Source: Lachnospiraceae bacterium (GTDB taxonomy: Bacteria > Bacillota > Clostridia > Lachnospirales > Lachnospiraceae). Taken from it: a DNA stretch of 51,478 nucleotides. Of the stretch, positions 36,370-51,478 are shown in pieces. Numbering within the stretch: the stretch's first letter is position 1; every line of letters starts with the position of its first letter. Position numbers and translations under genes: made by a program. The stretch spans positions 1 through 51,478 of the forward strand of contig JAGAQZ010000005.1 in NCBI GenBank assembly GCA_017622505.1, read 5' to 3'. The notes beneath the pieces are model-generated. The model was not told the origin of the DNA and did no database searches. It was given only the letters and a program-made list of their open reading frames with translations.

Positions 36370-36379
36370 TTCCGTCTTA

Positions 36380-36589
36380 CAACCGAAATTTGGATTTTAT
36401 TTTTTATAGAATGTAGCAATTTAGTATTCAATACGGACACGCTTTCGCTCCGTTAAGAATCGTAGCGGACACTAAGTTCGAAAACCATAAATTGTTTTCT
36501 CACTGAGTGCCGACGTTCTTAAAGGGTCCTTAATTGAATTACTAAATTGCTACTTTTTATTTATGCCATGAATATCCAAATTTCGGTTG
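36380..36589. repeat. 210-bp imperfect foldback between upp and uraA
   Basis: The outer 16 bp (36380-36395, CAACCGAAATTTGGAT) reappear inverted at 36574-36589. Further in, GTAGCAATTTAGTA near 36413 pairs with TACTAAATTGCTAC near 36540; GGAC-TTAAGAA segments pair with TTCTTAA-GTCC; GAAAAC and GTTTTC close an apical loop near 36480-36496. The whole interval is noncoding and would fold as one long hairpin. It could be a MITE-like element or a large structured RNA. The rest of the 320-bp gap holds only the uraA terminator. Confidence 0.75.
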
Positions 36590-36621
36590 AATCTCATAAC
36601 ACGTCTTGCATCTTATATAAC

Positions 36622-36653
36622 AAAAAGCACTACCTTCGCCAAGAAGATAGTGC
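36622..36653 (-). terminator. uraA terminator
   Basis: GCACTATCTTC and GAAGGTAGTGC (11-bp stem with one G-U) around TTGGC, followed by TTTTTG on the leftward strand. Confidence 0.82.
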
Positions 36654-36689
36654 CTTAATTATATTCATAATATATTAATCTTTTATACC

Positions 36690-38063
36690 TTATTCCGTTT
36701 TCATGGAACGTGTCTGTCCCACTTCAAAATTTACGCCTGTATCATCGGGCTTTTCTTCGTCAAAGTTGTAGTCCTTACCGGGAAGGATTGCGTTTAAGAT
36801 AATACCTGTTAATGCACCAACTGCAAGACCGGAAAGGCTGATGTTGATATCACCGATAGCAAATGAAATTGCACCTGCGCTACTGTAATTGATACCGATT
36901 GATAATACAAGAATCAAAGCTGCAATAATAACGTTACGGGACTTCGCAAAGTCAACCTTATTCTCAACAACGTTACGCACACCAACAGCAGAAATCATAC
37001 CGTAAAGGATTAAGGAAATACCACCAACGGTAGCGGTAGGCATTGCCTGAATCACTGCCGCAAACTTCGGACAGAAAGAGAAGAAAATTGCAAACACTGC
37101 TGCCAATCTTACTACCATAGGGTCATATACCTTGGAAAGATTTAAAACGCCTGTATTTTCACCATAAGTTGTATTTGCAGGTGCACCGAAAAGTGATGCT
37201 ACGATGGTTGCAAGACCATCACCAAGTAAAGTTCTGTGAAGTCCGGGGTCTTTGATGAAATTTCTTCCGACGGTAGACGAAATAGCGGATACATCACCAA
37301 TATGTTCTACAATAGTTGCCAATGCAATGGGCACAATTGTAATGATTGCAGTAATCAACAGGGACGCATCAAAATTGTCACCGAACATAGCAAATACCGT
37401 CATGTCCATATCTATGGGCAATCCAACCCATGCTGCATCTTTTACACCGCTGAAATCAACTTTACCCATGCAAATGCCAACCAAATAAGATGCAACAACA
37501 CCGATTAAGATAGGGATAATTTTAATCATGCCCTTACCGAAGATATTACAGATAATAACTGCAAGAATCGCTACCAACGCGATAATCCAGTTAGAAGAAC
37601 AGCTGTCAATCGCTGATTTGGAAAGTGTTAAACCGATTGCAATAATAATGGGACCTGTTACGATAGGCGGGAAGAATTTCATAATTCTGTTTGCTGAGAA
37701 TAATTTAATCAACAACGCCATTACCAGATAAAGAAGTCCCGCACATGCCACACCAAAGCAGGCGTAGGGAATCATTTCAACATTGCTCTTGCCGTCCACC
37801 ATCGGGGCAATTGCAAAATAGCCACCCAAAAATGCGAAGGACGATCCTAAGAACGCAGGAACTTTCCCTTTAGTTAATAAGTGAAATAAAAGTGTTCCGA
37901 TGCCGGCAAATAAAAGTGTAGTCGATACATTCAAACCTGTCAAAATCGGTACTAAAACTGTGGAACCAAACATGGCAAACATATGCTGAAGTCCCAATAC
38001 GGTGACTTTACCCACGCCCAGTTCTTTTGCATTGTAAACTGCATCTTGTGTTTTGTTACTCAT
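36690..38063 (-). CDS. uraA: Uracil permease (NCS2 family)
   Basis: 457 aa from the ATG at 38063 behind AAGGAGG; the frame extends upstream to 38138 without a site. About 14 hydrophobic helices. VLGLQHMFAMFGSTVLVPILTGL is the NCS2 opening with the QH motif; substrate-site segments include EHIGDVSAISSTVGRNF with Glu of TM8 and NTTYGENTGVLNLSKV of TM10, close to UraA/PyrP. It imports uracil with protons. Convergent with upp. No pyrimidine attenuator was seen in the short leader. Confidence 0.93.
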   Translation of the reverse strand: MSNKTQDAVYNAKELGVGKVTVLGLQHMFAMFGSTVLVPILTGLNVSTTLLFAGIGTLLFHLLTKGKVPAFLGSSFAFLGGYFAIAPMVDGKSNVEMIPYACFGVACAGLLYLVMALLIKLFSANRIMKFFPPIVTGPIIIAIGLTLSKSAIDSCSSNWIIALVAILAVIICNIFGKGMIKIIPILIGVVASYLVGICMGKVDFSGVKDAAWVGLPIDMDMTVFAMFGDNFDASLLITAIITIVPIALATIVEHIGDVSAISSTVGRNFIKDPGLHRTLLGDGLATIVASLFGAPANTTYGENTGVLNLSKVYDPMVVRLAAVFAIFFSFCPKFAAVIQAMPTATVGGISLILYGMISAVGVRNVVENKVDFAKSRNVIIAALILVLSIGINYSSAGAISFAIGDINISLSGLAVGALTGIILNAILPGKDYNFDEEKPDDTGVNFEVGQTRSMKTE

Positions 38064-38212
38064 TTTTAGCCTCCTTGGTATTTTATGTTTTTCGTGTTTA
38101 ACACTATTTACATCATAGCACTTTTTTATTCTGACCACAATGTAGTAACATCTGTTTTATGATAAAAAATCTTGTTCTTATCCTATATAAAATTTGCTTT
38201 TTACAAACTGTT

Positions 38213-39591
38213 TTACTCCGCGTGTTTGATATCCTTATATATCTCTTCTACCTGCGGACGCAACTCCAAAAACACATCTACAAGAATAGGATCAAAAGAA
38301 GTGCCTCTTCCCTCTTCTATAATCTTAAAGCACTCATCCAAGGGCAAAGCATCACGATAGCATCTTTTCTCCGAAATCGCATCAAACACATCCGCAATGG
38401 CCATAATGCGGGCACACAAAGGGATTTCTTCCCCTTTCAATCCTTCGGGATAACCTTTGCCGTTCCATTTCTCATGGTGATATCGGGTTACCTGATATGC
38501 AATATCTCTATACTGTTCATCACTTAAATGTCCGAACGTATCCTGGATAATTTTGCTTCCGCCCGCTGCATGATTCTTCATTTTTTCAAATTCTTCATCG
38601 TCAAGCTTATCCGGTTTTTGCAAAATATCATCCGGCACGGATATTTTACCGATATCATGCATAGGCGCAGCCATAATCAAATTATGTATATAATCCTTGG
38701 TCAAAATCTCGCGATAATATCCTTTATTACGCAAGCCCCAGGTAAGCAGCTCCACATATTGGCTGGTTCTTCTTACGTGTCCGCCGGTACTGTCATCACG
38801 ACTTTCTACCAGAGTCGCAAACCCCATAATCATTTCCGATTGATAGTTCCCAAGTTCTTTTAATATCGGATTCTCCTGATTAATATAAATACCAAGCACA
38901 AACAGGGTCGGCGCAATCGCCGTAATCAGCAGCTCCGTATAAACTGCTTTTATACCGGTTACTACAATTACTGCTCCGATAAAAAGACCGATGCTGTAAC
39001 GTTTCTTCTTTTCAATGTACTTCCAGCCCTGCACAAACTTATACAGCGAAAACAATAAGTACAGACCGGCCGTAATGAAACAAATATATACCGAAACTCC
39101 CATAGCATAATTGCTAATCGCTCCCACGCGGTACTCTGTTTCTCCGATAAATGCCACTCCTAAAATGCAGACCAAAGCAAAGGGTCCATACAAAAGAAGT
39201 TTCGACCACCAATGGCGTGGAAATGAATCCGTTATATGAAGCATATACAGAAACATAATAAATATCAAAGCTTCCAAACCGATTAAATAACCGATATGGG
39301 CAACCGTATTTAACCAGGCCGGAACATTGTGCAAATTATTAACCGTATAGGCCGACAAGCCATCAAAAATAATACTGAATACCGATACTGTCAAAAGCAA
39401 TTCAAACCACTTACTCTCGATATGAATCTTCTGCCTTTTTTCTCACCATTGTATGAAATTGCCACATACAGAACCACTACCAGGCACGCCATCTGCAGTA
39501 GAAAATGCTGCATCGGTACTTCCTGCCTGATATATTTAAAAATAACCGTATTCTCAAGATCTATTGCAGATAAATCCTGTGGAAATTGCAT
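38213..39591 (-). pseudogene. 7TM-HD-GYP c-di-GMP phosphodiesterase, frame disrupted
   Basis: The start is ATG 39591 behind AAGGAGTG, 11 bp after the radical SAM gene. The first frame encodes the N-terminal membrane part (MQHFLLQMACLVVVLYVAIS) and stops near 39391; the remainder, open to 38213, is in the -1 frame. One extra base in the A6 run at 39436-39441 (minus strand) would join ISYNGEKK to RQKIHIESKWFELLL. After about seven helices comes an HD-GYP domain: MHDIGKISVPDDILQKP and HHEKWNGKGYPEGLKG, which degrades cyclic di-GMP. Mutation, assembly error in the homopolymer, and slippage at the A-run all fit; the first two are more likely. Confidence 0.72.
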
Positions 39592-39602
39592 TTTTTCACT
39601 CC

Positions 39603-40922
39603 TTACACAATATTAGGAACAATACCTTTTTTAATCTGATAACGATAGAACAAATTTACGCCGAAATAAAACAGTGAATTCACCGGTCGCTTGATAAATG
39701 CACTTGTAAAAATCGTGCGTTTTAAAATGCTTCCGATGCTATACACATCATTATACAAATCCCAGTATGCCTTCGTCAGTTCCTCCGGCGTCATATTCTT
39801 CGGATAATGAACCGCCTCACAGGAATTGTACGAATAAATGTCAGCATTGTAAATACGATTTTGCTCCGTCATTTCGTCAAAAAACTTCGTTCCCGGAATC
39901 GGTGTTAATATATAAAAGCGCGGCACTGCAATGTGATTGTCAGCGATGAATTTGGCCGTCTCACGGATGGACTCTAAAGTGTCACCATCGGCTCCCACCA
40001 CCATCTCTGTCGAAATATCAATGCCGTGTTTACGGATAATACGAATCTGCGCCGCATAATTCTCCGGATGCGCCCAGGCCTTATTCATACTGACAAGACT
40101 CTCTCTTGTAATGCTCTCCAAGCCAAAACTTAAAACATAGCATCCGCTCTTTGCAATAATGTCCAACAACTCTTCATCCTTGGCAATATCAATGGAACAC
40201 TGGGTCATCCATTTCATCTTCAGCTTTTTAATTTCGGCACACAACTCAATGGCATAATCCCTGTCCGAAAAAATATTGTCGTCCAACAAAAGAAACTGCT
40301 TAAAACCAAGTTCTTTTACACGCTTAATATCCCTGATTACATCCGGAATGCTCCGCTTTAAATACTGCCCCCTGTAAAGGCAATATACCGAACAAAAACT
40401 ACAGGTTTTGGGACATCCGCGTCCCGCCTGTACCGGAAGGAAGTTGCCGATTTTTTTATTAAGCAGTAACTCGTATTTCGGCAGGGGTGTTTCTAACTTG
40501 GTCAGTTTCTTGCGATACACCTTTTTTAACTCACCATTGGAGTAATCCCGAAGCATCTCTGCCCAGGTTTCTTCCGCATCGCCCACCATAACGCAGTCCG
40601 CGTATTTCTCCGCCTCCTGTGGCATAAGGCTTACCATATAACCGCCCAGTACTACAGTCTTTCCAAGTTCACGAAACTTCTTGGCAATATCAATGGTACG
40701 GTGCACGGCGTGCCCCATACTGCTGATTCCGATCAAATCCGCATCCGTATCAAAAGGCACATCTTCTATGGTCTCATAACAAAGCTCCACCTCATAATCT
40801 TCCGGCGTCAGCGCTGCAAGCAAAGGCAGGGCAAGTCCTACAAAAAACAGTCTGCTCTTTTTTACCAGTACCCCATGCTGGTCATAGGGTGTGGGCTGAA
40901 TCAATAAAATCTTTTTATTCAT
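39603..40922 (-). CDS. B12-binding-domain radical SAM enzyme 5 (divergent member)
   Basis: 439 aa. Rossmann-like cobalamin-binding domain at about 1-140 (GISSMGHAVHRT, VVLGGYMVSLMP, VVGDAEETW-like loop) without the DxHxxG motif, as in class B radical SAM methylases. Radical SAM cluster cysteines Cys170, Cys174 and Cys177 in GRGCPKTCSFCS; LLLDDNIFSD and VVGADGDT are later barrel motifs. It keeps the GD/GE-type substrate loop that the other four lack. GGGAG precedes the ATG; it follows the previous radical SAM gene by 36 bp and precedes the HD-GYP gene by 11 bp. Reaction unknown; methyl transfer or C-C bond formation are the family options. Confidence 0.87.
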   Translation of the reverse strand: MNKKILLIQPTPYDQHGVLVKKSRLFFVGLALPLLAALTPEDYEVELCYETIEDVPFDTDADLIGISSMGHAVHRTIDIAKKFRELGKTVVLGGYMVSLMPQEAEKYADCVMVGDAEETWAEMLRDYSNGELKKVYRKKLTKLETPLPKYELLLNKKIGNFLPVQAGRGCPKTCSFCSVYCLYRGQYLKRSIPDVIRDIKRVKELGFKQFLLLDDNIFSDRDYAIELCAEIKKLKMKWMTQCSIDIAKDEELLDIIAKSGCYVLSFGLESITRESLVSMNKAWAHPENYAAQIRIIRKHGIDISTEMVVGADGDTLESIRETAKFIADNHIAVPRFYILTPIPGTKFFDEMTEQNRIYNADIYSYNSCEAVHYPKNMTPEELTKAYWDLYNDVYSIGSILKRTIFTSAFIKRPVNSLFYFGVNLFYRYQIKKGIVPNIV

Positions 40923-40958
40923 TATTTTACTCCCGAATACAGACTTCCCCGTCTGCTT

Positions 40959-42317
40959 TTAAAAAATAAAATTTCTTCTGAACTGAATACACAAAGTCTT
41001 AATCACAAACAGAAAATCCTTAATGCCGATTGTCTTATACAACTCGGCTTTGCGGTTATGCAACGCAAGCTTCATAGACATTTTATAATACTGCATTGTA
41101 AAAGCGGTAACGCTCATGTGTTTCGGCTTAAGAATGCAGTGGAACAGGTCCTGCTTACGGATATCCCTTGTCACCAAATCCTTCTCGTACTCTTTGTAAT
41201 TGGCCGCCCCCTGCATCGGTGTAAAAACAGACACCGTAGGGATAATCGGACGCTTTGCAATCCAGTTATACAAATCCTTAAAATCTTTTTTATTCATCTC
41301 CTGATGCACGATAAAAAGTCCGGCGCAGATAATATTATTTTCACTTAAAATCCTTACGCACTCTTCATTGTGCCAAACGGTAGCGTGCTTGTTATAAGAA
41401 TCCAGTTCCTTGTCATCGGTAGCCTCAAGACCTACCATAACAAGGGAAAGCCCCACTGCTGCCAACTCCTTCATAATATCTTCGTTCTCTGCGATAAAAT
41501 CCGCACGACCGTAAATTAAGAATTTCTTTTGAATATTCTTTTCTTTAATCAGACGGATAAACTCCCAAAGATATTCCCTGCTGACCAGGAAGTTATCGTC
41601 CGTAATATGTACGTTTGGTACATCAAGGGTTGCAATCTCATCCACCAGATGCTCCACACTTCTGCAACGGTATGCACCGCCGTTTCGGTTGGTACAGTAA
41701 CAGAACGTACAGGCATTGGGACAGCTGTAGGAATTCTTCACAAGTGCCAGCGGTCTGAATTTCAGGTAACCGTATCGCTTCACGTTGGCATAGAAATAAC
41801 TTCTGTCAGGCACCGGCAAATCCGCAGGGCTCTCGGTTTCTTTGGCATTACAAATCCACTCGCCTTCTTTGCGGTAACAGATACCGTTTATATCATCTAA
41901 AGTTAAATCTTTATCATCACCTGCAAGATATGTCATTAAACGTGCAAAGTTCTTCAATCCGCTCAAATGATACAAGTAATCTGCCTGCGAATCATAAAAG
42001 TTTGGATAGTTAATCTCTACATGACTTCCTCCCAAAACAACGAAAATTTCGGGATTATACTTCTTGACTCTCGCGGTCAACTTCTTCATCAACGGTTCCT
42101 GGGTAATATAACCTGTCATACATACCACATCCGGCTTTACTTCACGCAACTTTTTTCTCAGAGAAGTAAAATCATGACGCCTGTCATAGATTACAGCCTC
42201 GTACCCTGCCGAAACCAATACCGTATATAAATATTCCAATTCCAAAGGCTCGTGGTCCACTTGCGCTGTCATCGCAAAAATGCCCACCGTCTCCGGTTTA
42301 ATCAACAGTACTTTCAT
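40959..42317 (-). CDS. B12-binding-domain radical SAM enzyme 4
   Basis: 452 aa from the ATG at 42317 (AAAGGAAG site); the frame runs to 42371 inside the upstream gene. B12 domain at about 1-145 (DHEPLELEYLYTVLVSAGYEAVIYD, VLGGSHVEINYPNFY). Cluster Cys199, Cys203, Cys206 in YSCPNACTFCYCTN, then ITDDNFLVSREYL, MVGLEATDDKELDSYNK, and VHQEMNKKDF. Close in plan to the next two upstream genes. Its start overlaps the upstream gene by 20 bp, so it is part of one coupled operon. Substrate unknown. Confidence 0.87.
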   Translation of the reverse strand: MKVLLIKPETVGIFAMTAQVDHEPLELEYLYTVLVSAGYEAVIYDRRHDFTSLRKKLREVKPDVVCMTGYITQEPLMKKLTARVKKYNPEIFVVLGGSHVEINYPNFYDSQADYLYHLSGLKNFARLMTYLAGDDKDLTLDDINGICYRKEGEWICNAKETESPADLPVPDRSYFYANVKRYGYLKFRPLALVKNSYSCPNACTFCYCTNRNGGAYRCRSVEHLVDEIATLDVPNVHITDDNFLVSREYLWEFIRLIKEKNIQKKFLIYGRADFIAENEDIMKELAAVGLSLVMVGLEATDDKELDSYNKHATVWHNEECVRILSENNIICAGLFIVHQEMNKKDFKDLYNWIAKRPIIPTVSVFTPMQGAANYKEYEKDLVTRDIRKQDLFHCILKPKHMSVTAFTMQYYKMSMKLALHNRKAELYKTIGIKDFLFVIKTLCIQFRRNFIF

Positions 42318-43641
42318 TTTTACTTCCTTTATTTTTATAAATCTTATCAAACGTTCCAAGAAGGGACGCAAGATAAATTCTCGGGTAATTTACGTAGTAT
42401 AAGAAATCATACTCCAACTTAAACAGCCACATAGGCAAATGTTCGGGTTTCATCAGAACGTGGGTACCGCCGGTTCTTTTATACTCGTACTTATAAAGCT
42501 TGTCCTTGTTCTCTTCGTAGGTAACCGTACCCTTGAACGGAATCAGGATACTGAACAATACCCAAATCAATTTCTCTTTTCTGATAAAACGATTAATCTC
42601 CATAAAATTCTTATGAGTAAAATCATAGTTGATTACAAACAATCCCACGCACAACATTTTATGGTCGCGAAGAATTTTGACTGCCTCACGGTTTAACTCC
42701 ACGCTGGAATTCTTGTTATAATAATCCAGTGTTTCATCATTGGTCGCTTCCAAACCAACCAGCATATCTCGAAATCCCACCTTATAAAGCAAGGGCATAA
42801 TGTCCTTGCAACGCACAATACTGTCGGCTCTTGCAAAGATCATAAAAGTCTTATAACAATTATGTTCAATTAACTTATTACAAATCTCCAAAACACGTTC
42901 TTTGTTTACAAGGAAATCGTCATCGATGATGAAAATTTTATCATTGTCCAAGCCCAGGATTTCATCTACCACATCATCCACTTTACGTTCCGCATAGTGA
43001 CAGGCGTTAAACTGTCTGGAAATACAGAAGTTACATTTCTGCGGGCAGGAAAAAGCGGTCTTCATTACAGAGAACGTACCCTTTGCAAGCACGCGGTACT
43101 TCTTGATATTATCATAAAAATGACTTCTGTCCGGAAGAATACCGTAATCGCTGATGGGCTCGCCTTTTTCATTTTTTACCCAGGTGCCGCCTTCGCGATA
43201 AGCCATACCGGTACAATCCTTTAACGCCTCGCCCGTAAACTCGTTTCGCACTGCAAGACGGATGGAATCCAAACCGTGGTCGTAGAGTACAAAGTCCACA
43301 TCTTCTAACATAAAGTCATCGGGGTTAATGAAAACCTCCGCACCGCCCACCATAATTTTAAGCTCGGGGCGGGCCTTTTTTAACTTGTGAAGTTCTTTTA
43401 ACACATAGTGGGCAATGTTTGAAATAATGGAAAAACCAACAATCGTAATCTTGTTCTCGTCAACCAATTTCAACAGTCTCTTGAAACGAAAACAGGGACT
43501 GCTGATGCTCTCATCATGAATCATACAGAAAGCATCTTCCGCCTTGATGGCAGCCATAATGTATTCCAGGCCCAAAGGCTCCAAACTTGCCACTCTTTTA
43601 TCATAAGGTGCACGCACCAATAAATAACGTTCTTTTCTCAT
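42298..43641 (-). CDS. B12-binding-domain radical SAM enzyme 3
   Basis: 447 aa. B12 domain at about 1-145 (LVRAPYDKRVASLEPLGLEYIM, IMVGGAEVFINPDDF) and LYDHGLDSIRLAV in place of a GEGE loop. Cluster Cys199, Cys203, Cys206 in FSCPQKCNFCISR. IIDDDFLVNKERVLEICN and MLVGLEATNDETLDYYNKNSS are barrel segments shared with its neighbours. AAGGGAA before the ATG. 21 bp after the preceding radical SAM gene; overlaps the next by 20 bp. A methylase or coupling role is inferred from family only. Confidence 0.87.
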   Translation of the reverse strand: MRKERYLLVRAPYDKRVASLEPLGLEYIMAAIKAEDAFCMIHDESISSPCFRFKRLLKLVDENKITIVGFSIISNIAHYVLKELHKLKKARPELKIMVGGAEVFINPDDFMLEDVDFVLYDHGLDSIRLAVRNEFTGEALKDCTGMAYREGGTWVKNEKGEPISDYGILPDRSHFYDNIKKYRVLAKGTFSVMKTAFSCPQKCNFCISRQFNACHYAERKVDDVVDEILGLDNDKIFIIDDDFLVNKERVLEICNKLIEHNCYKTFMIFARADSIVRCKDIMPLLYKVGFRDMLVGLEATNDETLDYYNKNSSVELNREAVKILRDHKMLCVGLFVINYDFTHKNFMEINRFIRKEKLIWVLFSILIPFKGTVTYEENKDKLYKYEYKRTGGTHVLMKPEHLPMWLFKLEYDFLYYVNYPRIYLASLLGTFDKIYKNKGSKNESTVD

Positions 43642-43662
43642 AGGAATTCCCTTTTACCCTTT

Positions 43663-44991
43663 CTAAAACCAGCCCTTACGCTTGGTATCGTACGCAGTCT
43701 TAAACAACGCTCTGCACATAACCTTGGGATAGGTCAGTACGTGCAACCAATATACGCGGAACATAAACATAAAGGACGACATATGCTCCGGTTTAATCGT
43801 AATGTGGATACCGTCTAAGCGCTTTGACTTAAACTTGATAACGCGGTCCTTATACTCGTCATACGCGTCCGTACCCTTGTACGGGGTAAAAATACCGAAC
43901 ACTACCCAAAGCAGATTATTCTCGCGGATAAACTTAATCAGGTTCTTAAAATCCTGCTTGGTGGAAGTATGACTTACCACGAACAGGGCGTTGCACACCA
44001 GATTGCTATCGTGAAGATTTTTAATCGCCATAATGTTTTCGTTCTTGGAAGTCTGCTTATTGTATTCGTTCAGCTGCTCGTCGCTGATGGCTTCCAGACC
44101 AACCATAATGTCGCGGAACCCGGCCTCATAAGCCAGGGCAAGAATGTTGTCCGGATTCTCTGCCAAAAAGTCCGCTCTCGCATAAGCCATAAACTGCTTC
44201 TTGATGCCACGTTTGATAATCTCATCGCAGAACATTTTGACACGTTTTTTATCCACGAAAAAGGTATCATCCACAAACCAGATTCTGGGATGGTCAATCT
44301 CTTCTACCTCATCCACAACCTTCATAATATCTCGCTCGGTATAGGTATCGCTGTTCATCTTCGTGCAGTAACAGAAACTGCAGTTAAAGGGGCAGGAGAA
44401 GGACGCCTTGCTCAGCGCATAACTGCCTTTTAAGAAGATAAAATTCTTCTTCAGTCCCTGATAAAATGCGGTACGGTCAGGCTTACAGATGAAATCATCC
44501 ACTGCGGGGCCTTTTTTCTTAAATACCCACTCGCCGTTCTTTTTAAAACAGATACCGTTCTGCTCATCCATCACATCTTCCGCAAAACCGCCGAGAATCA
44601 AATTCTTCAAAGTCTGCAGACCATTGTCGTAATAAACCATATCGATAGAGTCAGTACAGAAGTCCTTGTAATTCATCTCCGCTTCCGGTCCGCCCACCCA
44701 GATGTTGGTATCAGGTAAACGTTTCTTTAGTTTCTTGGCCGTATCCAGAATATAATCCACGGTATTTGCGTTGGCGTTAAAACCAACGTAGTGAAAACCG
44801 CCCTTTTTAATCTTGTTGGTCAAACGATTCATGCGGTTAAAATAGGGATATTGAAACTCATCAAAAATTTCGCACTCTACACCCAAATCGTTACACAAGC
44901 CTACGATATACTCCAGTCCCAGCGGTTCCAAATTCGCGATGATAGTTGTGAATTTCGGACGCACCAGTAATATTTTAATTTTCTCGTTCAT
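43663..44991 (-). CDS. B12-binding-domain radical SAM enzyme 2
   Basis: 442 aa. B12 domain at about 1-145 (LVRPKFTTIIANLEPLGLEYIV, IWVGGPEAEMNYKDF, YYDNGLQTLKNLI). Cluster Cys200, Cys204, Cys207 in FSCPFNCSFCYCTK. FVDDTFFVDKKRVKMFC and MVGLEAISDEQLNEYNKQ are later motifs shared with the other copies. The ATG follows the stop of the upstream gene with no gap, and GGGGAAAG lies within that stop region. C-terminal residues 400-442 are basic and aromatic (MFRVYWLHVLTYPKVMCR), suggesting membrane or lipid contact, which is inference. Confidence 0.87.
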   Translation of the reverse strand: MNEKIKILLVRPKFTTIIANLEPLGLEYIVGLCNDLGVECEIFDEFQYPYFNRMNRLTNKIKKGGFHYVGFNANANTVDYILDTAKKLKKRLPDTNIWVGGPEAEMNYKDFCTDSIDMVYYDNGLQTLKNLILGGFAEDVMDEQNGICFKKNGEWVFKKKGPAVDDFICKPDRTAFYQGLKKNFIFLKGSYALSKASFSCPFNCSFCYCTKMNSDTYTERDIMKVVDEVEEIDHPRIWFVDDTFFVDKKRVKMFCDEIIKRGIKKQFMAYARADFLAENPDNILALAYEAGFRDIMVGLEAISDEQLNEYNKQTSKNENIMAIKNLHDSNLVCNALFVVSHTSTKQDFKNLIKFIRENNLLWVVFGIFTPYKGTDAYDEYKDRVIKFKSKRLDGIHITIKPEHMSSFMFMFRVYWLHVLTYPKVMCRALFKTAYDTKRKGWF

Positions 44992-46356
44992 TTACTTTCC
45001 CCTCATTAGTTTCTTCATATATTGCCAGTTCACTTTGAAAGCGCCCCAGGTTAATTTCAAGGTATCGTGCAAGCCGTACTTCTTAATCATATACCAGGCG
45101 CTTACAGGATTCGCGGTAATGGTGTAATATAGCACCATGGTGTACCAGTAGTACTTCCTTGCGGAAATGTGGGTGGGTTTTACTACCAGATGGGCCAAGT
45201 CCCACTTCTCATATTCTTCCTCTGCCACGATGAAATCATTGCGGTACTGCTCATACATTTCGGTTCCGCGAAGTGGTGTCAAAGGCTGTAAATTGACGAA
45301 TACAAGACCCAGCTTTTTAATCCACTTACCCAGTGCCTTGAAATCTTCCCAACGCCAGTCAAGACCTAAGATAAAAGTACCGTAACATTCCACATCATAG
45401 CGTTTCAGAATTGCCACCGCTGCTTCATTTATGGCTACGTTGGATTTCTTATTGTAATCCACCAGTTCGTTGCTGTCGCAGGATTCCAGACCTACAATGA
45501 CCGCACGCAAACCTACTTCCTTAAAACGCTTGATGACGTCTTCGTTTGATGCAATAAAATCTGCTCTTCCGTAAATCAAATATTTTTTATGTATGCCCTT
45601 TTCTTCCAGCATATCACAGAAGCGAAGGATACGGTTTCTGTCTACCAGGAAGTCATCATCCACAATGTAGATTTCCGTTTCCGGAACGCTCTCTAACTCT
45701 TCTATGATATTTTCCAAGGTACGTGTAAAATACTTCCCGTCAGTAATCTGACGGCAAAAGCAGAACTTGCACTGATACGGGCAACCGTAACTTGTCTTAA
45801 TTAAACTGCAGTTGCGGTGAAACATATAGTAATAATGCTTGCGGTATTTATTTACCTTATCTCTCGCAGGAAACAGGTAGTTAAACTCATTCTCTTTGAC
45901 AACCGCAGGGCCGTCCTTTTGATAAACGCAAGGTATCTTGTGCACATCTTCTTTTTGGTCCAGTGAATTCAGAATTTCGATAAAAGTGCGAATGCTGTTG
46001 GCACGCACAATGTAATCAATATACTCACACTCAAAATCCTCCGGATTTACCTCGGCGTGAACGCCGCCTACGACAACAGGCAGGTTCAAATCATAAGCCT
46101 TAATCTTTTTGGCATATTCTTTGATGACATTCACGTGCGCAATGTAGCCTGTAAGGCCTACCACATCAGGCTTGTGCATCTTAAGAAAATATGCCAGCGA
46201 CTTTTTCTCAAGAATCATATCCACAATCACCGCTTCGTGGCCCAGCACTTCAATGTTAGACGCCAGGTACTCCAGTTCCAGTGGCTCACAAATCATAACA
46301 TTCTGCAAACCGATGGTTTCCTTATGCGGTCTTGGTCTAAAAAACAATACTTTCAT
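44992..46356 (-). CDS. B12-binding-domain radical SAM enzyme 1 (first of five)
   Basis: 454 aa. B12 domain at about 1-150 (MICEPLELEYLASNIEVLGHEAVIVD, VVVGGVHAEVNPEDF). Cluster Cys192, Cys196, Cys199 in YGCPYQCKFCFCRQ, then YIVDDDFLVDRNRILRFCD, IVGLESCDSNELVDYNKKS, and LGLDWRWEDFKALGKW. The C-terminal 60 residues are hydrophobic and aromatic (YYWYTMVLYYTITANP). Starts 20 bp inside the upstream FemAB-like gene. First radical SAM gene in transcription order. Substrate unknown. Confidence 0.87.
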   Translation of the reverse strand: MKVLFFRPRPHKETIGLQNVMICEPLELEYLASNIEVLGHEAVIVDMILEKKSLAYFLKMHKPDVVGLTGYIAHVNVIKEYAKKIKAYDLNLPVVVGGVHAEVNPEDFECEYIDYIVRANSIRTFIEILNSLDQKEDVHKIPCVYQKDGPAVVKENEFNYLFPARDKVNKYRKHYYYMFHRNCSLIKTSYGCPYQCKFCFCRQITDGKYFTRTLENIIEELESVPETEIYIVDDDFLVDRNRILRFCDMLEEKGIHKKYLIYGRADFIASNEDVIKRFKEVGLRAVIVGLESCDSNELVDYNKKSNVAINEAAVAILKRYDVECYGTFILGLDWRWEDFKALGKWIKKLGLVFVNLQPLTPLRGTEMYEQYRNDFIVAEEEYEKWDLAHLVVKPTHISARKYYWYTMVLYYTITANPVSAWYMIKKYGLHDTLKLTWGAFKVNWQYMKKLMRGK

Positions 46357-47368
46357 TTTCTTCTCTTTCTTCCTTGAATACCCTATAGTCCGGAAAACGA
46401 TAGCGGTACTCCAGAATCCCTTTTCCTAATTTAATCGCCGTATTCAACAGGCAATTGGTATGATTGGCATAAAAATATTTTTTCTCAAGGACAGCACCGA
46501 ATTTCATTTTGGTTTCTTCGGATGTCTGCCCCAAATCGATAGATTTAAATTTATTTTCGATGGCATATTTTATGATGTTATAAATCATAAAATAATACAA
46601 ATCCGTAGTCTCTTGGGAATAATCCATTCCGCAAAACATAAAGATTAATTGTTCGCCCACACCTTTTAGCATAACAAATCCAATGGGTTTATCTTCCCGA
46701 TAAAAGACCAGCTTGTCAGCATCCGCTTTCTCAAAAAATCCCGGCTCTAACCGCTCTAATTTGTAGCCGGATTTCTCGTAGGTATTCCGGTATAAATCGT
46801 ACACCCTGTCATTCTTCGGATTCTTCTTTATTTCCAAATCAGCACAGGCCTTGATGGCCAGACGAATCCTTCTGCGGTAAGAACTTCGAAAACTTTTAAA
46901 ATAGTCCTCTGCCGTCTCATACCTTCGCGCCTCATTACCGAGTGTCAAATCCACCATACAGGTAGGCAGTGTCTCACCGATTACATAACTGCCGTGGGCG
47001 ATGGGGTTTGAAACATTCAGCACAAGTTTGGCTCCCTTGATGGTTTTGATATAATCAAGCATAAACTTTTCATCGTTGGTCACATACCCCGGATAACTTA
47101 AAGAACAGGGGAAACCGATGACTTTAACCGGATAGTACAGGGACATTTTACCGAAGGTTAAAATATCCATCCGATTGTGATACACCACAAAAAACGCATA
47201 GGACTTACCCTTTTGAATATAATAATATTCCTGCTTAAAAAGATTGTTTTCTTTAATCAGATTCAACAGTTCCCCTTCAAAGGGATACTCCAAAAAGGGT
47301 AGCTTCGGAAGCTTATCAAAATGCTCCTCGCAATATACTTTTATATCCTCATTAGATTTCTTTTTCAT
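46337..47368 (-). CDS. GNAT/FemAB-like acyl- or aminoacyl-transferase
   Basis: 343 aa. Two GNAT-fold halves: residues about 40-170 (SYAFFVVYHNRMDILTFGKM) and about 180-320 with FRSSYRRRIRLAIK and the C-terminal signature DLGQTSEETKMKFGA, as in BioF2/FemAB-like transferases that move an acyl or aminoacyl group to an amine. It is soluble. Starts 17 bp inside the upstream GNAT gene and overlaps the next gene by 20 bp. Given an ACP and ligase in the same unit, an acyl-ACP donor is a reasonable inference. Confidence 0.78.
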   Translation of the reverse strand: MKKKSNEDIKVYCEEHFDKLPKLPFLEYPFEGELLNLIKENNLFKQEYYYIQKGKSYAFFVVYHNRMDILTFGKMSLYYPVKVIGFPCSLSYPGYVTNDEKFMLDYIKTIKGAKLVLNVSNPIAHGSYVIGETLPTCMVDLTLGNEARRYETAEDYFKSFRSSYRRRIRLAIKACADLEIKKNPKNDRVYDLYRNTYEKSGYKLERLEPGFFEKADADKLVFYREDKPIGFVMLKGVGEQLIFMFCGMDYSQETTDLYYFMIYNIIKYAIENKFKSIDLGQTSEETKMKFGAVLEKKYFYANHTNCLLNTAIKLGKGILEYRYRFPDYRVFKEEREENESIVF

Positions 47369-48437
47369 ACACTATATATCTCTTATAAACTCCGTCGCAG
47401 ACTGCTTTACAGAATCCCGAAGAGTCCGTATTCTCATCCAGTACCCAGGAAGTTTCCGCTCTGGTTGCGCCGTAATTTGCAACGATTTTCAGAAATACCT
47501 GATGAATCAACACAAGGGGCATTCCCACAGTACGATATTCTTCCAGTACGCCATACTCCATTACCTTGGCAGTGTTCAGCTTTTTATTTAAGAACAGGTT
47601 CTTGATAAAATGCTTGGCACCGAAAGCCTCGCCGGGTTTGGCAAGTTCGTTAAAATCCGGATACCACATAATGAAGGCCACAGGCTTGTCACCGTCAAAA
47701 GCGAAAATCAGCGAATCCTCTTTCATAAATAAAAACAATTCTTTTAACATCTCGATATCTTCCTGATAAGTTCTCGGATAATAATACCGGTGATGATTGA
47801 AACATAAGTTGTTTAAGTCCGTATAGATTTTGGCATATTCTTCAAAATGTTTCTTATCGAAACATTTAAATGTATAATTACGTTCTACTTTGCGCAGGAA
47901 AGCGGCATAGCGTTCCAACTGCTTATCAATCTTCTCGATATGATAGGTGCTCATGGTAATCTCTTCACACCCCATATTTTTAAAATAGGTATTAAAGTAC
48001 TCGTGATTAATGGCTGAACCGAAAGAGTTTCCTTTCTCGTAGCCGGAAGCCAGTAATCCAAGGCCATAATTTACGTGGCCGTTTAAGCCGATTACAAGCC
48101 TTGTACAGCCAAAAGCCTTACCGACCTTCACCACCTCGTCCGTAAGCATTGTAACGGCCTCATCCGCGCCCTCACGGCTTACGAAGAAACTAAGCTGTAT
48201 GTATTCTTTTAACTGTTCGGTATAAACCGCCATACCCTCACACAGAATCCGGCCGTCTTCTTCCACGTAATAAACTTTTACTTCTTTGTTGTTCGTAAAA
48301 GAAGTTTTGCCCGCGAACAAATCCTTAATCATAAAAATGTCGTTGTCCACGAAGTGTGAGTTTTCACCTAAAATTTCTCTTCGGAACGCAAGAAATTTCT
48401 TCTGCTCCGCTTTGCTTTTTACTTCTGTAATATTCAC
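47352..48437 (-). CDS. GNAT-fold acyltransferase (YghO-like)
   Basis: 361 aa with a GTG start (48437) behind AAGGGGAA. N-terminal half: KFLAFRREIL and GLNGHVNYGLGLLASGYEKG. C-terminal GNAT half: LIFAFDGDKPVAFIMWYPDFNE, VMEYGVLEEYRTVGMPLVLIHQV, then ETSWVLDENTDSSGFC and YKRYIVYEK, the ending seen in YghO-type proteins. Probable amide- or ester-forming transferase on carrier-bound acyl groups. It overlaps the next gene by 17 bp and lies 80 bp behind the ACP; that gap holds two related inverted repeats. Confidence 0.75.
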   Translation of the reverse strand: MNITEVKSKAEQKKFLAFRREILGENSHFVDNDIFMIKDLFAGKTSFTNNKEVKVYYVEEDGRILCEGMAVYTEQLKEYIQLSFFVSREGADEAVTMLTDEVVKVGKAFGCTRLVIGLNGHVNYGLGLLASGYEKGNSFGSAINHEYFNTYFKNMGCEEITMSTYHIEKIDKQLERYAAFLRKVERNYTFKCFDKKHFEEYAKIYTDLNNLCFNHHRYYYPRTYQEDIEMLKELFLFMKEDSLIFAFDGDKPVAFIMWYPDFNELAKPGEAFGAKHFIKNLFLNKKLNTAKVMEYGVLEEYRTVGMPLVLIHQVFLKIVANYGATRAETSWVLDENTDSSGFCKAVCDGVYKRYIVYEKEI

Positions 48438-48453
48438 AATGTTCCCCTTGTTT

Positions 48454-48507
48454 TATGTACATTTCATACATATTCTTTATATTAATTTACGTACATTTCG
48501 TATACGT
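48454..48507 (-). repeat. Pair of related dyads between the ACP and GNAT genes
   Basis: TATGTA-CATTTCA-TACATA (48454-48472) and ACGTA-N9-TACGT (48489-48507) share the 9-mer GTACATTTC exactly 34 bp apart. The 80-bp gap is the only long gap in the operon. They may be regulator sites or RNA hairpins. Confidence 0.45.
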
Positions 48508-48517
48508 TTTTTCGTGC

Positions 48518-48748
48518 TTATTGTGCTTCTGCGCGCTTCGCTTCCAGATATGCAATCAACTCACTTACCGTATTCAACGAACGGTAATCTTTCTCATCGA
48601 TTTCAATGTGGTATTCTTCTTCAATCAAACAAACCAGATTTACGAAATCAAAGGAAGTCAAACCGTAATCTTTCTTGAAGTTATCATCATCGTTGATTTG
48701 CTTGATGCCGTAATTATCTTTCATTAATTTCTTCAATGCTGCTATCAT
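48518..48748 (-). CDS. Acyl carrier protein, dedicated to the operon
   Basis: 76 aa four-helix carrier. Phosphopantetheine serine is Ser32 in YGLTSFDFVNLV (the usual DSL reads TSF). Acidic helices EEEYHIEIDEKDY and VSELIAYLEAKRAE complete the fold. It carries an acyl chain as a thioester in the cytoplasm. Starts 5 bp after the ligase gene, whose last codons supply its GGAGAAT site, so the two are coupled and likely act as a pair. Not the housekeeping AcpP, since no fatty-acid synthesis genes are near and the DSL motif is altered. Confidence 0.9.
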   Translation of the reverse strand: MIAALKKLMKDNYGIKQINDDDNFKKDYGLTSFDFVNLVCLIEEEYHIEIDEKDYRSLNTVSELIAYLEAKRAEAQ

Positions 48749-48753
48749 AAATT

Positions 48754-50331
48754 CTATTCTCCGTATTTACTTCTCAAAATCTTCTTGGTGCTGTTTTTCT
48801 CAAACTCTTTATCCATCAATTCATAATCCGCAAGACGCATATATTCGGGCAGGCTTTCGTTGATACGGTCAATATCCGCCTGAATATCTTCCGGTGCCTC
48901 TTCGGTATAAATCAGTGCTACAAGAATGCGGTTATCATTTACCCTTCGGGTGGTAACGATGCACTCTTTAATCCAGTCCAAGTTGCTTAATTTCGCCTCT
49001 ATCATTTCCGGCAAAACATTCTTGCCGTTATCAAGAATAATCAGGTTCTTTTTACGTCCCGTCACGTACAAACGACGTTCTTTTAAATAACCATAATCAC
49101 CGGTCTTAAAATAGCCGTCCACCATACATTCCGCAGTCGCTTCCGGGTTCTTATAATACCCAAGCATTACGTTGGGCCCCTTGATTAAAATTTCACCGTC
49201 GTCCGCAATTTTGGCATCGACTTCTTTGATAATCGTACCCACGCTTTCAGAATCCATATCAAACTCGCGGTTGATACAAATTAAGGGTGCACACTCCGTC
49301 AAGCCATAACCGTTTAAAAGATAAATTCCAAGCTCCATATAGCGGTCCACATAGTAGGGATTTAAGGGCGCGCCACCGCAGGAAATAAACTTCAAACGCT
49401 TGTTGATTAAGTTGCCGAAAAGCATTCTTCGGATATCAATTTTGAACTTCAAAAGGAAGTTGCTGACCTTAATCATCCGCTGTAAAAGTTTATCCTTCTT
49501 CTGACGTTTTGCCTCTGCCAGAATCTTTTTATAAACACCCTCTGCAATCATAGGAACCATACTGACAAAGTAGGGGTTGTATTCTTTTAAATCTCTTTGG
49601 AAATGTTTGATATTCACAGTCAGGCAAATGGTTCCGCCGTTATAAAGTGTACATAAAATACCCGGGTTAAAACCATAGGTATGATTCATGGGCAACACCG
49701 CAAGACTGGGACTTTTTAACACATTATTCTGCAGGGCACCGCGTAAGCAGGCCGTTACATTTCGCTGTGTCAGCATTGCACCTTTTACATCGCCCGTGGT
49801 GCCGGAAGTAAAGCCTAATACGCAGAAGCGGTCGCTGTCCGTATCCTTAATTTCTTCCCAAAGCAAATCGATGCTGTGCTTGTCTTCGATAATATCAGAA
49901 TATACTTCATCTATATTGATAAATTCCACTTCTTCGGAAGTTTGAAAACTCTCAACTAAGTGCGCGGTTTTATCGGTGTAGAAAACAACACTGATGTCGA
50001 AATCGTGAATCTGCTTCCACAAATTCTCAGGCACATTTTCCTTATCCATAGGCGCAATCACATTCTTAAATACCGTGGCAAAATAAATCGTCAGATACTC
50101 ATAACGGTTCTCCGATAAAATACCGATGTGCTTGTTTTCCAGGCCTTTGTTTTTTAAATAAAAATAAAAACTTGTGGTCTCTTCCAGCATCTCGCGATAA
50201 GAGATATCACGAATTGCTTCCTTCTCACGATAGCGGATTGCAATCTCCTCCGGAGTCTTGCCGTAAACGCTGTGAAGCATCTCATAAAAGTTGTTATAAA
50301 CCACCACATCAAGATAGGGATAACCTGCCAT
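48754..50331 (-). CDS. AMP-forming acid:CoA/ACP ligase
   Basis: 525 aa ANL adenylating enzyme. A3 P-loop FTSGTTGDVKGAML at about 182-195, A5 YGLTECAPLI at about 342, A7 FKTGDYGY, A8 hinge GRKKNLIILDNGKNVLPE, and A10 lysine in KNSTKKILRSK at the end. It activates a carboxylic acid as acyl-AMP and transfers it to a thiol, here probably the adjacent ACP. The acid (fatty, aryl or other) is not predictable from visible residues. First gene of the ten-gene unit, with only a weak GGCGG before the ATG. Confidence 0.92.
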   Translation of the reverse strand: MAGYPYLDVVVYNNFYEMLHSVYGKTPEEIAIRYREKEAIRDISYREMLEETTSFYFYLKNKGLENKHIGILSENRYEYLTIYFATVFKNVIAPMDKENVPENLWKQIHDFDISVVFYTDKTAHLVESFQTSEEVEFINIDEVYSDIIEDKHSIDLLWEEIKDTDSDRFCVLGFTSGTTGDVKGAMLTQRNVTACLRGALQNNVLKSPSLAVLPMNHTYGFNPGILCTLYNGGTICLTVNIKHFQRDLKEYNPYFVSMVPMIAEGVYKKILAEAKRQKKDKLLQRMIKVSNFLLKFKIDIRRMLFGNLINKRLKFISCGGAPLNPYYVDRYMELGIYLLNGYGLTECAPLICINREFDMDSESVGTIIKEVDAKIADDGEILIKGPNVMLGYYKNPEATAECMVDGYFKTGDYGYLKERRLYVTGRKKNLIILDNGKNVLPEMIEAKLSNLDWIKECIVTTRRVNDNRILVALIYTEEAPEDIQADIDRINESLPEYMRLADYELMDKEFEKNSTKKILRSKYGE

Positions 50332-50380
50332 ATTTAAGCCGCCTTTTCTAATCTTTTTTACAATTGTCGCATTCTATAAA

Positions 50381-50405
50381 ATTATATCACATAATGTCAC
50401 ATTAT
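50381..50405 (-). promoter_or_regulatory. Extended -10 promoter with overlapping palindrome, ligase/ACP/radical-SAM operon
   Basis: On the minus strand TGATATAAT gives an extended -10 (TATAAT 50381-50386) with no good -35. Directly upstream lies ATAATGT-G-ACATTAT (50391-50405), a 15-bp palindrome over the spacer. A weak -35 plus an operator-like site suggests control by an activator or repressor not in the window. Confidence 0.55.
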
Positions 50406-50559
50406 AAAATAAAAAATATAAGAATGCCCGACATCCGTCTCGATGCTTTATGCCCGAAAAATTATGCACAGCCTTTTATCTAATACTTCTTTACCTGGTA
50501 AATCGGTATTATTTACAACAGAAATCACCAAAAAAGTGTTTTTTTGCATATTTCTACAG

Positions 50560-50588
50560 TTTACTTTACTTCTAAAATATATTAGAAT
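50560..50588 (+). promoter_or_regulatory. Candidate pfp promoter
   Basis: TTTACT (50560-50565), 17-base spacer, TAGAAT (50583-50588) on the plus strand, 45 bases before the pfp ATG. The remaining bases of this 302-bp divergent gap show a direct ATGCCCGA repeat and no gene. Confidence 0.5.
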
Positions 50589-50633
50589 GAAACTTGAGTA
50601 AAAAATTAAATATTACATAAAGGAGACGTAGTT

Positions 50634-51478
50634 ATGAAAATTTCATCATTACAGAAAGCAAGATACGAGTATTCTCCCAAGCTTCCCGCAATGTTAAGAA
50701 ACGGTATTGCTGACATTTGCGTAAGCGAAGGTGCAGAAACTCAGAGCGTAGCTGATCAGGAAAAGATCAAAGAACTTTTCCCCAACACCTATGGCAAGAA
50801 AGAAATCACTTTCCAGAAGGGTCAGAACACATCTGTTGCTAAGAAGCAGATTGTAGGTGTTATCCTTTCCGGTGGACAGGCTCCCGGCGGACACAACGTT
50901 ATCTGTGGTTTATATGACGCTTTAAAGGCTACAAACCCTGAAAACGAATTATACGGCTTCAAGGGCGGCCCCAGCGGTCTTATCGAAGATGACTACTTAA
51001 TCTTTGATGACGAATACATCAACAAGTTCAGAAATACAGGTGGTTTCGATATCATCGGTTCCGGTAGAACCAAACTTGAAACCAAAGAACAGTTCGCTAT
51101 CGTTGCAGAAGTTTGCAAGAAGCACGGCATCACAGCTGTTGTTATCATCGGTGGTGACGACTCTAACACAAACGCTGCTGTTCTTGCTGAATACTTTGCA
51201 GCTAACAACACAGGCGTACAGGTTATCGGATGTCCTAAGACAATCGACGGTGACTTAAAGAACGAAGACATTGAATGCTCATTCGGTTTCGATACAGCTA
51301 CTAAGACATACAGCGAAATCATCGGTAACATCGAAAGAGATGCTAACTCAGCTAAGAAGTACTGGCACTTCGTAAAAGTTATGGGACGTTCTGCTTCTCA
51401 CGTAGCTTTGGAATGTGCTCTTGAAACACAGCCTAACATCTGTTTAGTATCAGAAGAAGTTGCTGCTAAGAAGATGTC
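50634..51478 (+). CDS. pfp: Pyrophosphate-dependent 6-phosphofructokinase, N-terminal part (runs off the window)
   Basis: AAAGGAGACG is followed at 50634 by ATG, and the frame stays open for 281 codons to the right edge. The start [32 protein letters not shown], the PPi-type [10 protein letters not shown] (ATP enzymes have GGDGS), and [14 protein letters not shown] with catalytic Asp identify a PPi-PFK of the long plant/clostridial type, about 550 aa when complete. It reversibly phosphorylates fructose-6-phosphate with PPi in glycolysis. The highly regular codon use suggests strong expression. Only the truncation by the window limits it. Confidence 0.95.

Follow-up and report, generated by a model that had tools for sequence, protein, structure and literature searches.

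What would an operon make that combines an acid ligase and its own acyl carrier protein (ACP) with two acyltransferases and five B12-binding radical S-adenosylmethionine (SAM) enzymes? Such an operon lies in contig JAGAQZ010000005.1 of a Lachnospiraceae bacterium (GenBank assembly GCA_017622505.1), the whole analysed stretch of which, 51,478 nucleotides, is called the window below. Its nine genes are designated LIG, ACP, GNAT1, GNAT2, and SAM1 to SAM5 (Table 1). This operon represents one form of a gene-cluster family with a scattered occurrence among Clostridia, and the fixed unit of this family consists of the two acyltransferases together with SAM1 and SAM5. Judging from the sequences, we lean slightly towards the view that the product of the cluster family is an N-acylated amino lipid or a fatty amide, altered by B12 radical enzymes. 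No published account of this cluster was found in the open-licence literature, in agreement with an earlier note on this DNA, whose author recognised no published cluster with this set of genes.

Distribution and Core of the Cluster Family

A search with GNAT1 gave matches in 15 of 31 congeneric genomes, and in all 14 besides the source genome SAM1 adjoins it. Within the family, sampled as 299 genomes at about one genome per genus, matches were found in four: the source genome; G112, which holds the cluster without SAM4; G039, with a lone GNAT1 of about 50% identity (locus L025) adjoined by an ion-channel/TrkA-C gene and an alpha-amylase gene; and G244, with a distant relative of 25% identity. 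In the last two genomes no SAM1-like protein was found at E ≤ 1e-15. When 84,980 named genomes were scanned with the SAM1 alignment, 51 loci came up, labelled as Lachnospiraceae, Butyrivibrio, Ruminococcus, Oscillospiraceae, Defluviitaleaceae, Clostridiaceae, Tissierellia, Sedimentibacter, Youngiibacter, and others. The window and a locus of Acetoanaerobium noterae (L095), added from a plasmid collection via GNAT1, bring the total to 53 loci. The carriers come from the rumen and other ruminant gut sites, according to record titles, and from a sludge digester (Acetoanaerobium); Sedimentibacter hydroxybenzoicus DSM 7310, Youngiibacter fragilis (232.1), and Acetoanaerobium noterae are named records among them, and the titles of two Lachnospiraceae carriers, AB2028 and G41, bear no label of a metagenome-assembled genome. 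In profile searches, SAM5 orthologs scoring above 550 bits were found in 12 of 391 genomes of the class, along with one 330-bit fragment, and in 8 of 398 genomes of the phylum, the source genome being counted in both. The SAM5 paralogs stand apart from these orthologs, reaching about 271–306 bits at most among the matches listed (E 1e-80 or better).

Gene content, family membership, conservation, and linkage could be observed directly. Genes were counted in the 31 loci with at least 7.5 kb on each side of SAM1 (long-flank loci); the window was kept among them despite having 5.1 kb on one side, and the 22 of the 53 loci with a shorter flank beside SAM1 were left out. The presence of a gene was decided by blastp bit-score limits that we set ourselves, e.g., 250 for LIG, 60 for GNAT1, and 50 for GNAT2. 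GNAT1 and SAM5 are present in all 31 loci and GNAT2 in 29, followed by SAM4 (26, divergent forms included), SAM2 (23), SAM3 (21), a small methyltransferase (9), and a further radical SAM type, SAM6 (7). When the window and L095, the latter found through GNAT1, are dropped, GNAT1 and SAM5 are still present in 29 of 29. Over all 53 loci GNAT1 was found in 49, GNAT2 in 47, SAM5 in 43, LIG in 30, and ACP in 31; missing genes mostly reflect cut contigs, which does not hold, or not wholly, for four loci (L092, L081, L077, L086). The smallest form of the cluster is GNAT1-GNAT2-SAM1-SAM5 (L085/L132), and the number of radical SAM enzymes per variant ranges from two (L085) to five.

Linkage was also followed from SAM5. 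In this set, 17 of the 18 SAM5 orthologs above 550 bits outside the source genome were read, G570 at a contig edge and the fragment in G692 being left out, and the set overlaps with the SAM1-seeded one in at least one contig (L132/L085). GNAT1, GNAT2, and SAM1 are all present in 17 of the 17 ortholog loci, and these core genes adjoin the SAM5 paralogs in none of 13 loci, which represent 14 of the 47 listed paralog matches. The earlier note took all the genes for parts of one shared pathway and proposed as a test the occurrence of the radical SAM genes apart from the ligase, ACP, and GNAT genes. The outcome was mixed. They do occur without ligase and ACP, in 10 of the 31 long-flank loci. GNAT1 still adjoins them in every long-flank and every SAM5-seeded locus, one short-flank locus (L092, see below) being the exception. 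A shared pathway is supported, with the four core genes as its fixed unit.

The nearest relative of the operon is found in a metagenome-assembled genome labelled Lachnospiraceae bacterium (G303), with 87–96% protein identity. Ratios of nonsynonymous to synonymous substitution (dN/dS) against the G303 counterparts range from 0.015 to 0.091 over the nine genes (0.038 for LIG), compared with 0.031 for uracil permease; synonymous sites are near saturation for several genes in this comparison, so that dS is rough there. These values indicate strong purifying selection on all nine genes. Because dN/dS is low and the gene content is kept across distant Clostridia, the operon appears to be more than a chance assembly.

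Several further observations were made in these loci. In L028/L045 SAM5 is broken into two frames, in G728 (C31:7820-9082) a single TGA interrupts it, and in L091 both SAM1 and SAM4 are split; assembly error or decay may be the cause. The neighbourhoods of the 13 SAM5-paralog loci gave no hint of function. The paralogs of L155, L151, L152, L156, and L157 (family f99) seem to have a common neighbourhood, and that of L155 resembles, by eye, the mraZ/rsmH cell-division region. In L158 (8426-17001) an open frame of at least 2373 residues, which resembles AMP-binding ligases, follows a SAM5-like radical SAM gene at a distance of 44 bp; this region is possibly another natural-product cluster.

The Two Acyltransferases

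Both proteins could be assigned to the GNAT fold, as the earlier note had it, GNAT2 by a match above the Pfam cut-off and GNAT1, which stays below its own (15.3 vs. 20.7 bits), by profile comparison. In hhalign, GNAT1 aligned with nine YghO-type proteins over its full length (356 columns, probability 99.9, E 2.8e-33); the control, GNAT2 against the same proteins, gave a probability of 0.6. A tblastn search of plasmids with GNAT1 retrieved 24 non-Acetoanaerobium records, one of them annotated YghO, with about 20–23% identity (19 listed of the 24). E-values at 20% identity support common descent and not the same substrate. On these profiles GNAT1 belongs to the YghO/Aca (ceramide-synthase-type) family, the assignment being one of membership, not of activity.

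The acyltransferase gene known as bCerS is presumably the same as CC_1154/aca. The latter, CC_1154 in Caulobacter and yghO in E. coli, is required for dihydroceramide biosynthesis and lies beside a dedicated acyl-ACP synthetase and an ACP (PMC9386255). CC_1154 has been proposed to be a ceramide synthase (PMC11324152), and the term bCerS is used for an acyltransferase (PMC11087976). Nine YghO-type plasmid loci of the 24 non-Acetoanaerobium records were read. A pyridoxal phosphate (PLP) enzyme gene of the class I/II aminotransferase type is present in seven of them, four of which additionally have an ACP, an epimerase, and a fatty acyl-AMP ligase; the remaining two contain LptF/LptG and CDP-alcohol phosphatidyltransferase genes instead. 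From their annotation and by analogy with the published E. coli arrangement, the PLP genes probably encode serine palmitoyltransferase (Spt).

No Spt is encoded in the operon, and none was found at E ≤ 1e-10 in the source genome (90.85% complete). At the same threshold no Spt-like enzyme was found in four other carriers labelled Lachnospiraceae or Ruminococcus (G303, G319, G328, G331). An alpha-oxoamine synthase homologue of 30–33% identity is present in the carriers G329, G330, and W01, where it may be a housekeeping enzyme. The epimerase/reductase CerR was not found among the ten genes scanned, i.e., the operon and a neighbouring HD-GYP gene.

GNAT2 is a FemAB-like protein, as judged by its Pfam domain. 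Against the FemAB model of the XrtA/PEP-CTERM system (TIGR03019) it scored 19.9 bits, under the cut-off of 260. Profile searches of the PDB with GNAT1 and GNAT2 gave no meaningful match, and GNAT2 retrieved partial weak matches from plasmids, Acetoanaerobium aside.

Variant Operons and the Acyl Acceptor

The nature of the acyl acceptor is suggested by variants of the cluster. SAM4 and SAM5 are separated by two further genes in L145, L147, and L148, the intergenic distances being −4 to 129 bp. One of them matches FeeM-type N-acyl amino acid synthase (48.0 bits in L145 and 43.1 in L147; cut-off 27), and the other phosphatidylserine decarboxylase (158 and 155 bits, respectively; cut-off 22). L148 carries 99% identical copies of both L147 genes; L147 and L148 are congeners, and the variants thus represent two lineages. 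Since a further phosphatidylserine decarboxylase is encoded elsewhere in all three genomes, the copy inside the operon looks dedicated to the cluster. In L141 the frame of a gene with a diaminopimelate/ornithine decarboxylase domain, resembling amino acid decarboxylases, runs into that of GNAT1. Transporter genes also occur next to GNAT1: a sodium-dependent one of the neurotransmitter/amino acid family 34 bp upstream in L046, and one of the EamA type 11 bp upstream in L095. The enzymes of the variant operons suggest that the acyl group is accepted by an amino acid or its amine. Transfer to an amine, which the earlier note proposed alongside a hydroxyl acceptor, is thus supported both by the YghO/Aca family of GNAT1 and by the FeeM and decarboxylase genes of the variants.

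Ligase and Carrier Protein

The best NCBIfam match of LIG is a long-chain-fatty-acid–CoA ligase subfamily, at 178 bits and below the cut-off of 476. The protein contains the motifs TSGTTGDVK, NGYGLTE, and FKTGD, and the candidate phosphopantetheine serine of ACP sits in GLTSFD. A GGAG stretch resembling a ribosome site is located in the final codons of LIG, 5 bp separating the two genes; with the PF00501 and PF00550 matches it bears out the ligase–ACP pair with a ribosome site inside the ligase described previously. LIG and ACP co-occur in the identical 21 of the 31 long-flank loci, and both are missing from the other ten. The loading of an acid onto a dedicated carrier, put forward in the earlier note, is supported. 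No LIG-type ligase was found elsewhere (E ≤ 1e-30) in any of the nine LIG-less cluster genomes searched (L091 left out). L147 and L148 have a different ligase of the fatty acid–CoA type about 590 bp upstream of GNAT1, 23% identical to LIG. Because the searched LIG-less genomes have no LIG homologue elsewhere, LIG and ACP look like an optional, added loading route and not like the heart of the pathway.

The ligase and ACP were also considered as the pathway core, and this was rejected on the ten loci devoid of both, the missing LIG homologue in nine of nine genomes searched, and the dissimilar ligase that L147 and L148 carry instead. In one congeneric operon (L030:12467-14641) a TIR-domain protein is encoded directly upstream of the ligase.

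The Radical SAM Enzymes

All five SAM proteins exceed the Pfam cut-offs for PF04055 and PF02310 and have the CxxxCxxC motif (CPYQCKFC at 192 in SAM1). By sequence they are members of the cobalamin-dependent radical SAM superfamily, with cofactor binding predicted. SAM1 to SAM4 are 29–38% identical among themselves, and SAM5 is 23–26% identical to any of them. In a midpoint-rooted tree (204 proteins, only four references), SAM1–SAM4 group together with SAM6, next to HpnR and an unannotated protein from Streptantibioticus; SAM5 branches separately, on the same side as BchE and a Treponema protein. Of the five paralogous B12-type radical SAM proteins described earlier, the domains and the motif are thus confirmed, and the single set of paralogs is not, SAM5 lying outside the SAM1–SAM4 clade. 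Mean column identity is 79% in an alignment of 14 SAM1 rows and 76% in one of 15 SAM5 rows from across the lineages.

The best of all scores against named families is that of SAM1 with the HpnR model TIGR04367, 181 bits vs. a cut-off of 650. The BchE model TIGR02026 gave 148 bits at best (SAM4; cut-off 481), the HpnJ model 88 bits (cut-off 578), and TIGR04072, a ladderane-type lipid radical SAM model, 86 bits (SAM5; cut-off 360). Since all five stay below the curated cut-offs of the named families, any reaction assigned to them is putative. A search of the PDB with the SAM1 profile, SAM1 alone being used, found AprD4, OxsB, TokK, and CysS, and no Tes entry at E ≤ 0.001. Most characterised cobalamin-dependent radical SAM enzymes are methylases, and HpnR is the hopanoid C-3 methylase, i.e., an enzyme of lipid C-methylation. 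Because HpnR is the nearest annotated reference and methylases prevail among the characterised members, methylation may be guessed by analogy as the simplest reaction. The reactions of cobalamin-dependent radical SAM enzymes also include ring contraction, and thioether and ring formation (PMC13331322). The C-terminal 70 residues of each of the five proteins contain 10–14 aromatic residues, a count made with no control comparison.

In three loci of the SAM6 variant (L068:7305-9435, L084:2460-4597, L047:14116-16210) genes for an ABC-type ATPase, a HypB/CobW-like GTPase, and a small Fe-S protein are located between SAM6 and SAM5; this trio possibly handles metal or corrinoid.

Proposed Pathway and Alternatives

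From these data we infer the following reactions, their order, the acceptor, and the lipid nature of the product. LIG would activate a free fatty acid and load it onto the dedicated ACP; relatives lacking the pair would take the acyl group from the cell's own acyl-ACP or acyl-CoA. GNAT1 would join the acyl group to an amine to give an amide, the amine not being supplied by Spt and probably being an amino acid or its decarboxylation product. GNAT2 would transfer a second acyl or aminoacyl group. SAM1 and SAM5 would act on unactivated carbons in either the acyl chain or the amine part, methylation being the simplest possibility, and SAM2 to SAM4 would contribute extra modifications differing between lineages.

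Several points weigh against this pathway. The identity between GNAT1 and YghO is about 20%, and their acyl acceptors need not match. The best LIG matches are generic, and no characterised radical SAM family was matched above its curated cut-off by SAM1–SAM5. The FeeM and decarboxylase evidence comes from 4 of the 17 SAM5-seeded loci, two of them near-identical congeners, and these genes occur in no locus with the gene order of the window. GNAT2 was not found near SAM1 in L077 and L086, and L081, whose contig starts just before LIG, lacks SAM5 over 10 kb downstream of SAM1. L092 consists of a split SAM1 (two frames) and the small methyltransferase alone, GNAT1, GNAT2, and SAM5 being absent from the 10 kb upstream and the 4 kb downstream; it is perhaps a remnant of the cluster. 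Finally, the majority of the loci come from metagenome-assembled genomes.

The same genes could instead make a secreted small fatty amide, a signal or an antibiotic and not a membrane lipid, by adding radical methylation to the logic of gut fatty acid amides. A precedent exists in the oaa clusters of gut Clostridia, which comprise an adenylating enzyme, an ACP, and a condensation domain (PMC13142362); the patchy distribution of GNAT1 among congeneric genomes and the turnover of accessory genes would fit a specialised metabolite, and transporter-type genes adjoin GNAT1 in the single loci L046 and L095. On the other hand, no condensation domain was found among the ten proteins, no transporter type was seen recurring across lineages, though no systematic count was made, and the aromatic-rich C-termini of the SAM proteins would tentatively suit a membrane-bound substrate. 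A product of this kind is considered unlikely.

A non-lipid product, with the acyltransferases and radical SAM enzymes modifying an amino acid, a cofactor, or an envelope component, seems improbable. Many FemAB-like proteins act on cell-envelope substrates, and GNAT2 resembles them; the ten loci devoid of ligase and ACP are also compatible with it. However, all nine YghO-type loci read have Spt-type PLP genes or other genes of lipid synthesis beside the GNAT1 relative, and FeeM and phosphatidylserine decarboxylase genes lie inside the variant operons.

In an anaerobic ceramide-like pathway operating without Spt, radical enzymes would build the long-chain base and GNAT1 would acylate it. We regard such a pathway as rather doubtful. 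The family of GNAT1 and the triad of ligase, ACP, and acyltransferase, as in sphingolipid clusters (PMC9386255), agree with it, as does the failure to find Spt-like enzymes in five of five Lachnospiraceae- or Ruminococcus-labelled cluster genomes searched; against it, none of the nine genes is of the carbonyl reductase type, three other cluster genomes have the alpha-oxoamine synthase homologue mentioned above, and such a coupling is not known to have a precedent. A broader version, in which the radical SAM enzymes replace the chemistry of Spt and a hydrophobic part built or branched through radical C–C bond formation is N-acylated to yield a new class of ceramide-like lipids in Clostridia of the rumen, gut, and digesters, is likewise a long shot. 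We give hardly any credence to a tail-to-tail membrane-spanning lipid of the diabolic acid type, raised as an option in the earlier note: radical SAM chemistry on alkyl chains and the report of such lipids in Bacillota, including Butyrivibrio, speak for it, but the coupling in Bacillota is assigned to Mss, which resembles the archaeal Tes (PMC13274423), the SAM1 profile, the one profile used, retrieved no Tes entry from the PDB at E ≤ 0.001, and a YghO-type N-acyltransferase would serve no evident need in diabolic lipids.

Operon Layout and the Neighbouring HD-GYP Gene

The source genome is a 2.44-Mb draft, the operon being located on its contig C25. The leftward run of genes with overlaps or short gaps noted previously was borne out for nine genes, spanning 50331-39603 on the minus strand with intergenic gaps, from LIG to SAM5, of 5, 80, −17, −20, 0, 21, −20, and 36 bp. 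The right edge at 50405 given in the earlier note has to be corrected, as the LIG ATG is at 50331 and no listed gene begins at 50405. A scan for sigma-70 promoters and terminators was uninformative (31 and 9 sites vs. 32.7 and 11.2 expected by chance), and an Rfam scan of 36000-51478 gave zero matches. In the 80-bp gap between ACP and GNAT1 (48438-48517) two near-copies of a GTATACGAAATGTACGTAAA-like element were seen by eye, a possible operator.

Table 1. Genes of the operon, positions in the window.
Gene	Predicted product	Length (aa)	Position	Strand	Status in cluster family	Support
LIG	AMP-forming acid ligase (fatty acid type)	525	48754..50331	-		PF00501, 181 bits
ACP	Dedicated acyl carrier protein	76	48518..48748	-		PF00550, 43 bits
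GNAT1	YghO/Aca (bacterial ceramide synthase type) N-acyltransferase	361	47352..48437	-	core	hhalign to YghO-type proteins
GNAT2	FemAB-like acyltransferase (Acetyltransf_6)	343	46337..47368	-	core	PF13480, 28.0 bits (cut-off 22)
SAM1	B12-binding radical SAM enzyme	454	44992..46356	-	core	PF02310, 61 bits; PF04055, 54 bits
SAM2	B12-binding radical SAM enzyme	442	43663..44991	-	accessory	PF02310; PF04055
SAM3	B12-binding radical SAM enzyme, sister of SAM2 (tree)	447	42298..43641	-	accessory	PF02310; PF04055
SAM4	B12-binding radical SAM enzyme	452	40959..42317	-	accessory	PF02310; PF04055
SAM5	B12-binding radical SAM enzyme, separate lineage	439	39603..40922	-	core	PF04055, 69.5 bits; PF02310, 39.1 bits

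Of the ten-gene operon originally described, the nine genes of the table form the conserved set, and the tenth, the HD-GYP gene beyond SAM5, is not conserved. It lies beside the cluster in one of the 31 long-flank loci, the window alone. In G303 a uracil-permease-like gene (named by eye) takes its place directly after SAM5, and in L029 a 60% identical HD-GYP homologue is situated 4.4 kb upstream of the ligase, with other genes in between. As a conserved operon member it was rejected on these grounds; in the window genome it may be co-transcribed with the operon. The HD-GYP frame as listed starts with a TTG at 39400, 202 bp beyond SAM5. An ATG frame of 66 codons (39391-39591) opens 11 bp past the SAM5 stop, in a frame other than that of HD-GYP, and, with its stop at 39391, overlaps the first 10 bases of the listed frame. 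Because this ATG frame runs into the HD-GYP start in another frame, the HD-GYP gene looks frameshifted near its start.

Comparison with Known Systems

A gene-cluster family that joins GNAT1 and GNAT2 with SAM1 and SAM5 has been defined here, and the named records among its carriers mean that the product can be sought in culture. Its natural variants, with two to five radical enzymes, are a resource for assigning the role of each enzyme. If the proposed pathway is true, it would link amide formation of the ceramide-synthase type with B12 radical chemistry at unactivated carbons; no such combination was met in the open-licence papers searched. A new class of fatty amides from such Clostridia would be of wide interest, since animal receptors are among the targets of bacterial fatty acid amides (PMC13142362).

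Among single-enzyme relatives, HpnR is, together with the Streptantibioticus protein, the nearest to SAM1–SAM4 of the four tree references, but the identity is about 25% and the score far under the cut-off. BchE and HpnJ share the B12-binding radical SAM architecture, and among the NCBIfam models that of BchE ranks first or second for each of the five proteins, although the scores of both models fall well short of their cut-offs. There is also a weak resemblance to the XrtA/PEP-CTERM module of a FemAB-like protein, an acyltransferase, and a PLP decarboxylase: GNAT2 matches TIGR03019, the FeeM of the variants TIGR03694, and their decarboxylase TIGR03099, all three far below curated cut-offs; no exosortase was noticed, and no search was aimed at it.

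By its gene content, the operon is a member of neither the ceramide clusters nor the gut fatty acid amide clusters, since Spt is absent from the operon and was not found in the genome, and no condensation domain is present. With the ceramide clusters of Caulobacter and E. coli BL21 (aasR-acpR-spt-epi-aca(yghO)) it shares the grouping of an adenylating ligase, a small ACP, and a YghO/Aca N-acyltransferase, LIG and ACP being putative counterparts of the acyl-ACP synthetase (AasR) and ACP of the ceramide clusters. Unlike these clusters, it is devoid of spt and of an epimerase/reductase gene, adds five B12 radical SAM enzymes and a FemAB-like acyltransferase, and is found in Clostridia. With the oaa clusters of Coprococcus eutactus, the product of which is oleoyl aminovaleric acid, it has in common a ligase, an ACP, and an amide-forming enzyme in gut Clostridia (PMC13142362). 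The amide former of oaa is a stand-alone condensation domain, whereas that of the operon would be a GNAT-type enzyme; and oaa is described as comprising three proteins, none of them radical SAM (PMC13142362), whereas the operon has five radical SAM enzymes.

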